Origin: Halorussus salilacus
Lineage (GTDB): Archaea; Halobacteriota; Halobacteria; Halobacteriales; Haladaptataceae
Direction: 5' to 3'
Length of the DNA stretch: 64,000 bases
NCBI RefSeq assembly: GCF_024138125.1
Contig: NZ_CP099993.1
Coordinates: forward strand, 186,001-250,000
The position numbers were made by a program, and so were the translations under genes. Below are positions 21,918-50,746 of this stretch, piece after piece (the first letter of the stretch is position 1; every line of letters begins with the position of its first letter). A model generated the notes under the pieces. The model was given only the letters and a program-made list of their open reading frames with translations. It was not told the DNA's origin and searched no databases.

Positions 21918-21930
21918 TTCTGGAACGTAT

Positions 21931-22032
21931 CGCCCGGTGACACCAACTACCCTGAATCGCCCGGTGACACCAACCACCCCGAATCGCCCGGTGACACCAA
22001 CCACCCCGAATCGCCCGGTGACACCAACCACC
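21931..22032. repeat. 27-bp tandem repeat, 3.8 copies
   Basis: Units begin CGCCCGGTGACACCAAC at 21931, 21958, 21985 and 22012; the last is cut short where the structured element starts. The first copy has two substitutions, the others are identical. Confidence 0.85.
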
Positions 22033-22036
22033 GGGC

Positions 22037-22157
22037 GGGACTGAAAGGGGCCGCCCGCTCGCGTTCACTTCAGTCGTCTCTGCAGGCAACTATTCGCGCG
22101 GGCGGTGCGGAGAGCGCGAATATCCTGCAGAGCGACCGCGAGCGGGCGGGGGCTTTC
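22037..22157 (+). ncRNA. Structured hairpin element, copy B
   Basis: Outer stem GAAAG (22043-22047)/CTTTC (22153-22157), GGG/GGG loop, 13-bp stem (22051-22063 with 22137-22149). Inner stem CTCTGCAGG (22078-22086) with CCTGCAGAG (22124-22132), and TATTCGCGC (22091-22099) with GCGCGAATA (22114-22122). Relative to copy A the inner stem differs at two base pairs, both sides changing together, which supports selection on structure. Confidence 0.6.
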
Positions 22158-22372
22158 GAGGCGTTCTCGTTCACGGACTCTGGTTTTCGTAGCGAGCGGG
22201 CGGGGCTTTCGAGGCGTTCTGGTTCACGGACTCTGGTTTTCGTAGCGAGCGGGCGGGGCTTTCGAGGCGTTCTGGTTCACGGACTCTGGTTTTCGTAGCG
22301 AGCGGGCGGGGCTTTCGAGGCGTTCTCGTTCACTGACTCTGTTTTTCGTAGCGAGCGGGCGGGGGCTTTCCG
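22158..22372. repeat. 53-bp tandem repeat built from the 3' arm of element B
   Basis: GCGAGCGGGCGG-GGCTTTC recurs with CTTTC at 22153, 22206, 22259, 22312 and 22366, separated by CGAGGCGTTCTGGTTCACGG and related bases. Only the 3' half of the hairpin is multiplied, so these copies cannot fold like the parent. Confidence 0.85.
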
Positions 22373-22434
22373 GTCCTACCCCCGTCGTAGTCGAGGCCGT
22401 AAAATTAAGTCCCAGTACCCGCAATCGTCCGGCA

Positions 22435-37701: not shown

Positions 37702-37740
37702 TCGCGGGTCGGGTCGGTCGGCGACCGACCCGACCCGCGA
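37702..37740. repeat. Perfect palindrome, probable bidirectional terminator
   Basis: 19-bp arms (37702-37720 and 37722-37740) with one central base, between convergent genes. Confidence 0.55.
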
Positions 37741-37776: not shown

Positions 37777-38304
37777 TCAGAACTGTAGATACGAGAACTG
37801 GGCGTACGAACTCGGTTCGGTCGTCCGGTCGCCACACGCCTCGCACTCGAAGGTCTCTTCGAGGTACACCTCGTCGGGGCCTTGGCCGTCCGACTCGCGG
37901 CGAATCTGCCGGGCGCGGGTTCGTCGCCGGGCGAAGGCGGTCTCGCACGACGAGCACGACGAGCGCGCGCGAACGACGAAGTAGCCCCCGCCGAACGCGA
38001 GCAGGAAGAGTCCGATTGCGAGCGTCCGAACCGACCCGCCGAGCGGGCCGAGCGAACCACCGGTGCGAGCGAAATGGCCGAGAAGGAGAACCGCGCCGCC
38101 GAGGAGTCCGGTTCCGCCGAACGCCGCGGTTCGATACCCGGTCGGCGTCAGCCCGTGAAGGCGACCGTAGAACGAGACCGAGATGGCCTGTGTCGATACC
38201 TCGTCTGGGCGCGCGAAACCGCCTCCTCGCCGCACGTCTGTCGAGTAACGGGACCCCGACGCACGTTCGGCCCCTACCTGTCTCCTCCCGGACCTGTCTG
38301 ACAT
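37777..38304 (-). CDS. Membrane protein with a split zinc ribbon
   Basis: A 175-residue protein with two hydrophobic segments (about 60-110) and two cysteine pairs, CSSC and CEAC, that would form one zinc ribbon. A minus-strand TATA (AAATATAA, about 38333-38340) gives a near-leaderless start at ATG 38304. Diverges from the cas locus; not a known cas accessory gene. Confidence 0.65.
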   Translation of the reverse strand: MSDRSGRRQVGAERASGSRYSTDVRRGGGFARPDEVSTQAISVSFYGRLHGLTPTGYRTAAFGGTGLLGGAVLLLGHFARTGGSLGPLGGSVRTLAIGLFLLAFGGGYFVVRARSSCSSCETAFARRRTRARQIRRESDGQGPDEVYLEETFECEACGDRTTEPSSYAQFSYLQF

Positions 38305-38391
38305 TAGCAACCGTTTACCACACTACTGACTTATATTTTTCCAGAGCATTTCCAGCGCATCTCATGTCGCAGGGCGAGCGACCAGAATCCC

Positions 38392-38456
38392 GCTTCGCTC
38401 CCACGAGGTGTTGCTGAAACCATGCCCGACTTCGGGGCTCACCCCACCGTACCCAC
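38392..38456 (-). CRISPR. Degenerate solitary CRISPR repeat with leader end (CreA-like or array remnant)
   Basis: Read on the minus strand, 38456-38421 matches the last 37 bp of the array leader (48107-48143) at 34 positions. The 29 bases 38420-38392 match the 30-bp repeat at 24 positions: GTTTCAGCA, a missing base, CGTGGGA, GAAGC. The 8-nt crRNA handle ATTGAAGC is changed to AGCGAAGC. A spacer-like stretch follows at 38391-38357 with no second repeat. CATTTATC at 38509-38516 offers a minus-strand TATA box. Either the remnant of a second array or a crRNA-like regulatory RNA. Confidence 0.7.
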
Positions 38457-38539
38457 CGGTCGCATCGTCACGTCGGGCTCGATTCGCCGAACCTCCATCT
38501 TCCCGTACATTTATCAGAGTGGGTTCGAAAGTGACAGCT

Positions 38540-38581: not shown

Positions 38582-39355
38582 ATGCGGCTTCTCGTACGAC
38601 TTTCCGCGCGTGCAAACGCGGTGTACGACGAAGCGTACCACCACAAGCTTCGCGGACGGCTCTGGAACGCGCTAGAGGGGACCGAATTCGGCGAGTCCCA
38701 CGACGCGAACGTCCCCTCGGAGTTCTGCTACTCCAACCCGTTTCCACCGAGAGACATGGACGAGGGCGACAGACGGACGCTCCTCGTCGCGTCGCCACAC
38801 GAGGAACTACTGAGCCACGTCGCCCGGGACCTCAAAGCCGACCGCGAGTTCAACGTCGGCGAGATGCCGTTCCGTGTCGAGGACCTGAGCGTCCTCGCGC
38901 CGGATGTCGGCGAACCCGGAACCTCGGGCGTTATCGAGACAGGGACCGGCGTCGTCGTTCGTATCCCCCAGCATCGATTCGAGGACTACGACATCGACCC
39001 CGACGGGAACGCCGCGGCGTTCTGGCGACCGGAGTACACGACCGAGCCGTTTCGCGTGCAGGTCCGGAACAACCTCGACCGCAAGCACGGCCGTTTCTAT
39101 CCCGAGCGACCCGGTCCGAGCGACCGCGAGGGGCCGCTGTTCGATTCGCGGGAACTCATCAAGACCTTCGCGCTACCGGTGACCGTGACCACGGGCGAGG
39201 TGATGACCTACGTCCTCAGCAAGTGGAGGTTCGAGTACACGGTCCGGAACGACCATCACCGACGCCACCTGAACCTCGCGCTCGACTGCGGTATCGGCGA
39301 GCGGAACGCGCTCGGCTTCGGGTTCCTCAACATCGTGGAGGACGAGGATGGTTGA
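38582..39355 (+). CDS. cas6: CRISPR-associated endoribonuclease Cas6
   Basis: A 257-residue Cas6 that cuts the precursor RNA within each repeat to leave an 8-nt 5' handle. Visible: an N-terminal RAMP ferredoxin-like fold, His20/His21 (AYHHKLRG) as catalytic candidates, and the C-terminal Gly-rich loop GIGERNALGFGFLN. First gene of the I-B operon; it overlaps cas8b by 8 bp. Confidence 0.92.
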   Translation: MRLLVRLSARANAVYDEAYHHKLRGRLWNALEGTEFGESHDANVPSEFCYSNPFPPRDMDEGDRRTLLVASPHEELLSHVARDLKADREFNVGEMPFRVEDLSVLAPDVGEPGTSGVIETGTGVVVRIPQHRFEDYDIDPDGNAAAFWRPEYTTEPFRVQVRNNLDRKHGRFYPERPGPSDREGPLFDSRELIKTFALPVTVTTGEVMTYVLSKWRFEYTVRNDHHRRHLNLALDCGIGERNALGFGFLNIVEDEDG

Positions 39356-47984: not shown

Positions 47985-48143
47985 CTGTCCGGCGCTTCCG
48001 TCGGAGGTGCGTACTCCGGAGCCCAAGCGATAGTCGATACCCCGTCGTCGACCCCCCGGGGGTTGGGAGGGTATTGGCGGTCGACGGAAATGTTGATGTA
48101 CGAGCAGTGGGTACGGTGGGGTGAGGCCCCGAAATGGGGCATG
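47985..48143 (+). promoter_or_regulatory. CRISPR leader
   Basis: 159 bp between the cas2 stop and the first repeat. Its last 37 bp (GTGGGTACGGTGGGGTGAG then a CCCC...GGGG hairpin ending CATG) recur in inverted orientation before cas6. Leader-proximal conservation is expected for integration anchoring. A GC palindrome (CCCCCCGGGGG region, about 48050-48062) lies in the middle. Confidence 0.8.
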
Positions 48144-50697
48144 GTTTCAGCAGAACCCTTGTGGGATTGAAGCACCCCGCAAATCGGGCATGGGACGTTG
48201 CTCATAGGGTTTCAGCAGAACCCTTGTGGGATTGAAGCGTCCTCGGTCTGCCCGAGTCCTACGGCGAGCCGGAGGTTTCAGCAGAACCCTTGTGGGATTG
48301 AAGCCGCACCTGCCGCCGCTTCGACCTGTTCGGCGAGGTCGTTTCAGCAGAACCCTTGTGGGATTGAAGCCGTCTCGCCCGAGCTGGTGATGTCTTGGCG
48401 GGTTTCCGTTTCAGCAGAACCCTTGTGGGATTGAAGCCACGACCTCCGCCGGACGTGGGCCACGTCGCTCCGGGTTTCAGCAGAACCCTTGTGGGATTGA
48501 AGCGTCGAGGACGGTGGTAGCTCATGAACGCACCCGGAGTTTCAGCAGAACCCTTGTGGGATTGAAGCCCTCCTCCGGAACTTTACCGTATTGCTCGCGG
48601 AATTGGTTTCAGCAGAACCCTTGTGGGATTGAAGCATCCTGGCGGTCCTGCTCGACGCGGTCGTCGGTTGGGGTTTCAGCAGAACCCTTGTGGGATTGAA
48701 GCTAGGTCCCATCCGGTACTCTCGATATTATACGTGGGTTTCAGCAGAACCCTTGTGGGATTGAAGCAGGTCATCGAGGGCATCGACTCGTTCGGCGGTC
48801 TCTTGTTTCAGCAGAACCCTTGTGGGATTGAAGCAGATGTAACATCTACTTTTTCAGAATCACCGCCACCTGTTTCAGCAGAACCCTTGTGGGATTGAAG
48901 CATCTGGTATGATAAGGCTATCTGTATCACAATATAGTTTCAGCAGAAACCTTGTGGGATTGAAGCAAAAGTTAAAGCTATTTCAAGAGATGATGGGTCT
49001 TAGTTTCAGCAGAACCCTTGTGGGATTGAAGCGAACAAGCTTCTCGAAATCTGGCAGAACAATCAGGTTTCAGCAGAACCCTTGTGGGATTGAAGCGTGC
49101 GGTCGGAGCAGAAGTATGGTGAGACGGTTTTCGTTTCAGCAGAACCCTTGTGGGATTGAAGCAGCTGGTTCGTCCGGGTCGCCTCGGTCGTCGCTGTCTC
49201 GGGGTTTCAGCAGAACCCTTGTGGGATTGAAGCATGGGTTGAAACGGCCACGAACGTCGAGAAAACAGCCGTTTCAGCAGAACCCTTGTGGGATTGAAGC
49301 GTCGTTCATGGTGTTAGTTCGCTATGGAGTACGTGGTTTCAGCAGAACCCTTGTGGGATTGAAGCCTGGGCGAGCCGGTCCTTGATGAGGCCGGGGACTT
49401 CGTTTCAGCAGAACCCTTGTGGGATTGAAGCGTCGACAAGACCGGGCTGAAATCCGCGTCGTTCTACGCGTTTCAGCAGAACCCTTGTGGGATTGAAGCC
49501 CCTAATCCCCGGTAAGACGCGCTTAAACCCGATTAGTTTCAGCAGAACCCTTGTGGGATTGAAGCCTCATCCCAATTTAGAGTTATCTGCGATGGGGTAC
49601 CGTTTCAGCAGAACCCTTGTGGGATTGAAGCTTGAATAAACATATAATGTATCATTATATATAGCAGGTTTCAGCAGAACCCTTGTGGGATTGAAGCGCG
49701 GTATCAACCACGGGGTCCACGTCAAATACGGCGTTTCAGCAGAACCCTTGTGGGATTGAAGCTTGTACGCGGTTTCGTAGGAGCACCCGACGTAGTCGGC
49801 GTTTCAGCAGAACCCTTGTGGGATTGAAGCATCAGCACCATCCCATGACGCCGTAGTCGTCGTGAACGTTTCAGCAGAACCCTTGTGGGATTGAAGCCGG
49901 GGCGGTTCGTCGATGGAAGTAGTCAATATCACCGGGTTTCAGCAGAACCCTTGTGGGATTGAAGCGATCCAGCCGCCCGTGATGCTCGACAGCTGGCGGA
50001 GTTTCAGCAGAACCCTTGTGGGATTGAAGCCGTACGTCGGGCCGACCGCGGGCGACATTGCGAAGTTTCAGCAGAACCCTTGTGGGATTGAAGCTCCTCG
50101 TACCCCATCTACTCGTCACCTCCGACGAACGGTTTCAGCAGAACCCTTGTGGGATTGAAGCCGCGACTGGATACACCTGATGCTCACCGCGCTCACCGGT
50201 TTCAGCAGAACCCTTGTGGGATTGAAGCGTCGTGAGGGGTCTCGTCAGTCATCGGCGGTGGTCCAGTTTCAGCAGAACCCTTGTGGGATTGAAGCAAGGG
50301 CGCTGAGGTAGCGGTTATCGATACGTGGCAATTGTTTCAGCAGAACCCTTGTGGGATTGAAGCTGGCCACTCAACGTCTCCAAGCGGGTCGTCCAACCAT
50401 GTTTCAGCAGAACCCTTGTGGGATTGAAGCAGGAAGTGGGCCACGGTATCAGCGTAATCCGCGCCCTGTTTCAGCAGAACCCTTGTGGGATTGAAGCGAG
50501 ATAGCGGTCGACGTGGTGCAGGGGTGGCGACGAGTTTCAGCAGAACCCTTGTGGGATTGAAGCACCGTCGACTGCGCGAACGAAGCCGTCGCCCACCGCG
50601 TTTCAGCAGAACCCTTGTGGGATTGAAGCTCGTCGAGTCCGTCGACGGACGCCGTCACATCTTCAGCGTTTCAGCAGAACCCTTGTGGGATCGAGTA
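48144..50697 (+). CRISPR. CRISPR array, 39 repeats and 38 spacers (type I-B)
   Basis: The 30-bp repeat (GTTTCAGCAG, then AACCCTTGTG, then GGATTGAAGC) starts at 48144, 48209, 48275 and so on to 50668; spacers are about 34-40 bp. Repeat 13 (48937) has one C-to-A change. The last repeat (50668) keeps 24 bases and then diverges, marking the leader-distal end and confirming orientation away from cas2. The final GATTGAAGC supplies the 5' handle of crRNAs. Spacers 9, 11-14 and 22-23 are noticeably AT-rich. Confidence 0.97.
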
Positions 50698-50746
50698 TCA
50701 AGCAAGAATCGCAAAACTCACCGCGGAAATCCCGCCTCCGGCCGAC

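Follow-up and report, generated by a model that had tools for sequence, protein, structure and literature searches.

A solitary leader-repeat unit upstream of cas6 in Halorussus salilacus is probably the remnant of a collapsed CRISPR array

CRISPR arrays have been described to collapse when the terminal repeat recombines with the leader-adjacent one, an event that can remove the array except for one repeat (PMC8047081). Other systems have been shown to undergo naive adaptation at a single repeat adjoining the leader (PMC8047081). In haloarchaeal CreTA modules, the guide pairs through its nucleotides 1-5 and 7-11 with the promoter of creT next to a TTC PAM, and Haloarcula hispanica has a creA with one repeat (PMC8501985). 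The first repeats of CreA conserve the eight-nucleotide handle that binds Cas5 (PMC9458426). The cas-regulating CreR RNAs are reported for type I-B systems and have partial complementarity to the promoter (as cited in PMC12737573 and PMC13131331). The Racr anti-CRISPRs, which are solitary repeat units, are encoded by viruses and plasmids, where they are often preceded by a predicted promoter and distant from cas genes (PMC10651486).

The window analysed here, a stretch of 64,000 nucleotides, is part of the 3.6 Mb genome of the haloarchaeon Halorussus salilacus and contains a type I-B operon with the genes cas6-cas8b-cas7-cas5-cas3-cas4-cas1 in one orientation, which is apparently intact (cas2 was not scored). 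The minus strand upstream of cas6 contains a single degenerate repeat that is joined to the end of a CRISPR leader (Table 1). Like the collapsed arrays (PMC8047081), this unit combines leader DNA with one repeat, has no spacers, has the polymorphism level of a terminal repeat, and occupies a slot for an array; unlike them, it has also lost the leader core, so that its replenishment is unlikely. It shares an ectopic degenerate repeat near a type I-B cas6 with haloarchaeal CreTA modules (PMC8501985, PMC9458426), and a position adjoining a cas promoter with CreRs. The single CRISPR-like repeat is also reminiscent of Racrs; however, the unit is joined to a leader end and lies beside a cas operon. 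We caution that a degenerate repeat with a leader end beside cas genes can mimic a gene for CreA or CreR. Comparison with relatives, together with a seed test that includes positive controls, can separate a relic from such genes.

Table 1 Features of the window in and around the solitary leader-repeat unit. Positions count from the first nucleotide of the window.
Feature	Position	Strand	Description
Neighbouring open reading frame, function unassigned	37777..38304	-	175 aa; apparent membrane segments, Cys pairs
Stretch after the repeat ("spacer" of the preliminary description)	38340..38391	-	Most likely trailer DNA or the intergenic region before the minus-strand gene; searches gave no target
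Single degenerate CRISPR repeat	38392..38420	-	29 nt, GTTTCAGCAACACCTCGTGGGAGCGAAGC; most likely a former terminal (trailer-end) repeat
Retained leader end	38421..38456 (about)	-	36 nt, GTGGGTACGGTGGGGTGAGCCCCGAAGTCGGGCATG; central pair of the inverted repeat mismatched
Expected site of the conserved leader core	38457..38508	-	Significant leader similarity gone
TTTATCA, probable TATA box of the cas6 promoter	38510..38516	+	-72 from the cas6 ATG
cas6	38582..39355	+	First gene of the type I-B cas operon
Main CRISPR array	48144..50703	+	39 repeats, with degeneration essentially confined to the terminal one; full leader ends at 48143

The main array, which follows the cas operon, and its leader served as the reference for comparison with the solitary unit. 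The leader end, GTGGGTACGGTGGGGTGAGCCCCGAAGTCGGGCATG, is identical to that of the main array, GTGGGTACGGTGGGGTGAGGCCCCGAAATGGGGCATG, at 34 of 37 positions, with one deletion. The repeat, GTTTCAGCAACACCTCGTGGGAGCGAAGC, matches GTTTCAGCAGAACCCTTGTGGGATTGAAGC in 25 of the 31 columns of the best gapped alignment. The alignments thus reproduce the leader-end match on the minus strand given in a preliminary description of the locus, which had reported the repeat match as the equivalent 24 of 30. When the whole genome was searched with the unit, the leader-repeat junctions of the three full arrays were found with E values of 8.8e-15, 1.6e-14, and 3.1e-14, and the next match had an E value of only 0.6. 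The resemblance of the unit to leader-repeat junctions is far beyond chance.

As already noted in the preliminary description, there is no second repeat beside the unit. The stretch after the repeat, which had been called spacer-like, is not definable as a spacer because it lacks a second flanking repeat. The first eight nucleotides of the repeat, which constitute its Cas6-binding part, and the GTGGG motif are intact, and the handle has changed from ATTGAAGC to AGCGAAGC, so that the earlier account of an altered handle and a preserved 5' part holds. The adaptation anchor1, AACCC, is interrupted and reads AACACC.

The three full arrays of the genome, two of which are outside the window and have leaders nearly the same as that of the main array, contain 103 repeats. 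Ninety-nine of these carry no change and one differs at a single position; only the three terminal repeats are more degenerate, each with four changes. The terminal repeats of the arrays of two relatives, G020 and G013, carry three to eight changes. The solitary repeat, with five or six changes, is at the terminal-repeat level of degeneration. Because degeneration in this genome essentially affects terminal repeats only, this number is expected of an old terminal repeat, perhaps after slight further decay. The exact positions of the changes are mostly not shared with terminal repeats. Among candidate substitutions common to the solitary repeat and the terminal repeat of G020, T17C alone is upheld by the best alignment; this change is also present in other haloarchaeal repeats.

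The DNA upstream of cas6 was compared at 108 loci from Halobacteria, including that of the window. In this set, in which a few start sites are unclean and some loci represent one genome from two collections, most loci have no repeat upstream of cas6, 14 have an array pointing towards cas6, and 16 have degenerate repeats on the plus strand, mostly of the CreA kind. Six loci have an array that points away from cas6, with its leader adjoining the gene (G020, G013, G218, G250, G160, and a Halobacteriales MAG). The solitary unit has the same place and orientation as these divergent arrays. The nearest relative compared, G020, in which Cas6 is 85% identical, carries an array of 22 repeats in the slot, divergent from cas6. 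The preliminary description had offered a relic second array as one reading of the unit, and the arrays of G020 and five other genomes, matching in slot and orientation, support it. The same description had regarded a normal multi-repeat array at this place in related genomes as evidence against a CreA-like gene, and relatives carry such an array.

The solitary repeat is 162 bp from the start codon of cas6, versus 235 bp in G020, 240 bp in G013, and 224 bp in G160. A deletion of about 60-75 bp could account for the shorter distance. The flank on the other side of the unit is not shared with G020: what follows the solitary repeat differs from the trailer of the G020 array. A search of G020 for the neighbouring minus-strand gene did not recover it. 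A DNA search of the neighbouring region across the family did not identify the same junction. The mismatch of the trailers and the missing neighbouring gene may count against a collapse of the array at this place.

Working leaders of this genus are most conserved at about -105 to -40 (GTCGACC...GGGGGT...GGTCGACGGAAAT..TTGATGTG), where their identity is 90-96% within the genome and 66-90% between species; the last 40 nucleotides of the leader are variable between species. In the solitary unit, the region from -105 to -40 has 46-55% identity to leaders, which is the chance level, and the last 40 nucleotides match the genome's own leaders at 83-85%. The possibility that a full leader has decayed upstream of the retained end was rejected, as the residual similarity in an alignment test was not significant (p = 0.15). 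The leader core is judged to be lost because of the chance-level identity upstream of the retained end and because the repeat is 60-75 bp closer to cas6. The leader end is 85% identical to leaders of its own genome and 65% identical to the one that precedes the G020 array in this slot. Because of this difference, direct descent from the array in the slot of G020 would require homogenisation of leaders within the genome; otherwise, the origin would be independent.

The very end of the leaders contains an inverted repeat (GCCCCGAAATGGGGC and variants), which is located at positions 48126-48143 of the window and also precedes other arrays (L024, L025, L021, and L022). It reads GCCCC/GGGGC in one array and GCCCG/CGGGC in another, so that the pairing is kept while the central pair switches from C-G to G-C between arrays, a hint that the inverted repeat may have a structural function or bind a protein where leader and repeat meet. 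In the solitary unit the central pair is mismatched, according to sequences read by eye.

It is probable, judging from these sequence comparisons, that the solitary unit is the remnant of a second, divergent CRISPR array, reduced by collapse to its terminal repeat and deprived of its leader core. A second array would once have run away from cas6 on the minus strand. All of its spacers would have been lost, most simply by recombination or slippage between the first repeat and the degenerate terminal repeat, and the product would have been a leader followed by the terminal repeat and the trailer. The leader core, containing the promoter and conserved motifs, would have been lost by deletion or decay, later or simultaneously, and a remnant without it would be expected neither to acquire spacers nor to produce its own transcript. 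Because a collapse leaves the terminal repeat, the DNA after it would be trailer or intergenic DNA, not a guide. This stretch is the upstream region of the neighbouring minus-strand open reading frame, whose ATG is preceded at about 30 bp by a separate TATA-like box (AAATATAA). The intact first eight nucleotides and GTGGG of the repeat, and the 85% versus 65% identity of the leader end, count against the collapse. The unit may be a natural archaeal example of array collapse, which the loss of the leader core would make irreversible.

The similarity of the leader end to the genome's own leaders (83-85%), greater than that to the same-slot leader of G020, would also be explained if the fragment had been copied here from one of the genome's arrays, rather than being what is left of a resident array. 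Spread of leader-array units has evidently occurred in this genome, which has them at three places. Nevertheless, a copied fragment is unlikely, since the unit occupies the place and orientation of the arrays of relatives, and a terminal-like degenerate repeat would not adjoin a copied leader end.

In the preliminary description, a TATA sequence at 38509-38516 was taken as a sign that the unit is transcribed. However, the sequence there is TTTATCA on the plus strand, at the position where the TATA box of cas6 is conserved in relatives. Exact TATA hexamers on the plus strand of the 102 other loci, counted by locus and 10-bp bin, gave 19 counts at -90 to -61, none at -60 to -1, and four at -200 to -91. 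TTTATCA is probably the TATA box of cas6 and provides no evidence for transcription of the unit. It is very unlikely that the unit still gives rise to a minus-strand RNA that is processed by Cas6 and incorporated into Cascade, where it would tune the cas operon either by serving as a decoy or by regulating with a target or pairing rule different from the known seed. If true, a collapsed array would have given rise to a regulator with one repeat.

Guide function was evaluated by a seed test of guide positions 1-5 and 7-11, with p values derived from shuffled guides, and CreTA-like modules were subjected to the same test as controls. A CreR-type RNA would guide Cascade to the promoter of cas6 and repress the cas operon. 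The unit is beside this promoter, and CreRs with partial promoter complementarity are reported for type I-B systems (PMC12737573, PMC13131331). Yet the unit has no significant complementarity to the cas6 promoter, in which the best seed match with any PAM was 7/10 (p = 0.68). With a TTC PAM, the score of the stretch against the cas6 promoter region was 5, no better than those of 100 ordinary array spacers (mostly 5-6), and a CreR is highly improbable. The array spacers of the genome were themselves considered as guides to the cas6 promoter and rejected, as the best score, 8/10 for one of 100, is unremarkable.

The preliminary description had also proposed a CreA-like RNA gene. Such a gene would produce a crRNA-like antitoxin RNA through which Cascade would silence a linked creT. 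The repeat is ectopic, degenerate, and adjoins cas6, its first eight nucleotides are intact, and the creA of Haloarcula hispanica provides a precedent for a single repeat (PMC8501985). In the seed test, six CreTA-like controls (L048, L071, L115, L116, L118, and L125) had TTC-flanked matches of 10/10 located 350-710 bp upstream, with p values of 0 to 0.005, and the nine remaining plus-strand degenerate units scored 7-10, some with another PAM. In contrast, the best TTC-flanked match of the solitary unit near cas6, within 400 bp, was 5/10 (p = 0.79), and the best match with any PAM over 1.4 kb upstream was 7/10 (p = 0.995). No creT candidate was found, and the earlier remark that neither a creT partner nor a seed match was convincing agrees with these results. 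The unit is on the strand opposite to all six control modules and contains leader-end DNA. Its handle is altered where CreA is most conserved (PMC9458426): 15 of 15 CreA-like first repeats, found partly by consensus similarity and therefore biased towards conservation, end in TTGAAG[C/T], whereas the solitary handle is AGCGAAGC. The search of the genome for a TTC-flanked match, which had been proposed earlier, did identify two exact seed matches, but both are inside coding frames, and a distant genomic target was rejected. With up to two mismatches, the seed pattern had 184 matches in the genome versus 57 for the reversed control, an excess attributed to codon composition. No protospacer for the stretch after the repeat was found beyond chance in viral, phage, and plasmid collections. 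A common origin of this stretch with an array spacer was rejected, as the best identity was 53%. With no seed target, an altered handle, no creT, the leader core missing, and a supposed promoter that is probably that of cas6, a CreA-like RNA gene is extremely improbable.

It is hardly credible that the leader end and single repeat are kept as a spacer-less but usable array, an acceptor for new spacers, for which the naive adaptation shown in other systems (PMC8047081) and the intact first three nucleotides and GTGGG of the repeat would speak, as the leader core is lost, anchor1 is interrupted, the central pair of the inverted repeat is mismatched, and no spacer is present versus about 100 across the three other arrays.

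The survey of the DNA upstream of cas6 also provided observations on other loci. The six modules used as controls (L048, L071, L115, L116, L118, and L125) are on the cas6 strand and have a degenerate first repeat with an intact handle. They are probable CreTA modules and may be undescribed members of the family. Weaker CreTA candidates are L114, L061, L070, L127, and L146. Weak single repeat-like sequences on the strand opposite cas6 are present in two other haloarchaea, in L145, at about -200 from cas6, and in L141, at about -161, and are possibly further relics of divergent arrays. The Halorussus aquaticus plasmid CP100402 carries two cas6 loci about 364 kb apart (L079 and L080) with equal identity to the query, which suggests a duplicated cas region.

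Two other features of the window are repetitive. The repeat search identified tandem repeats at positions 21926-22413, which have periods of 27 and 53 bp. A long palindrome (CGCGGGTCGGGTCGGTCGGCGACCGACCCGACCCGCG) is located at 37703-37739, downstream of the neighbouring minus-strand gene, and a similar sequence is present in several other genomes of the family (G011, G027, G023, G002, and G008).
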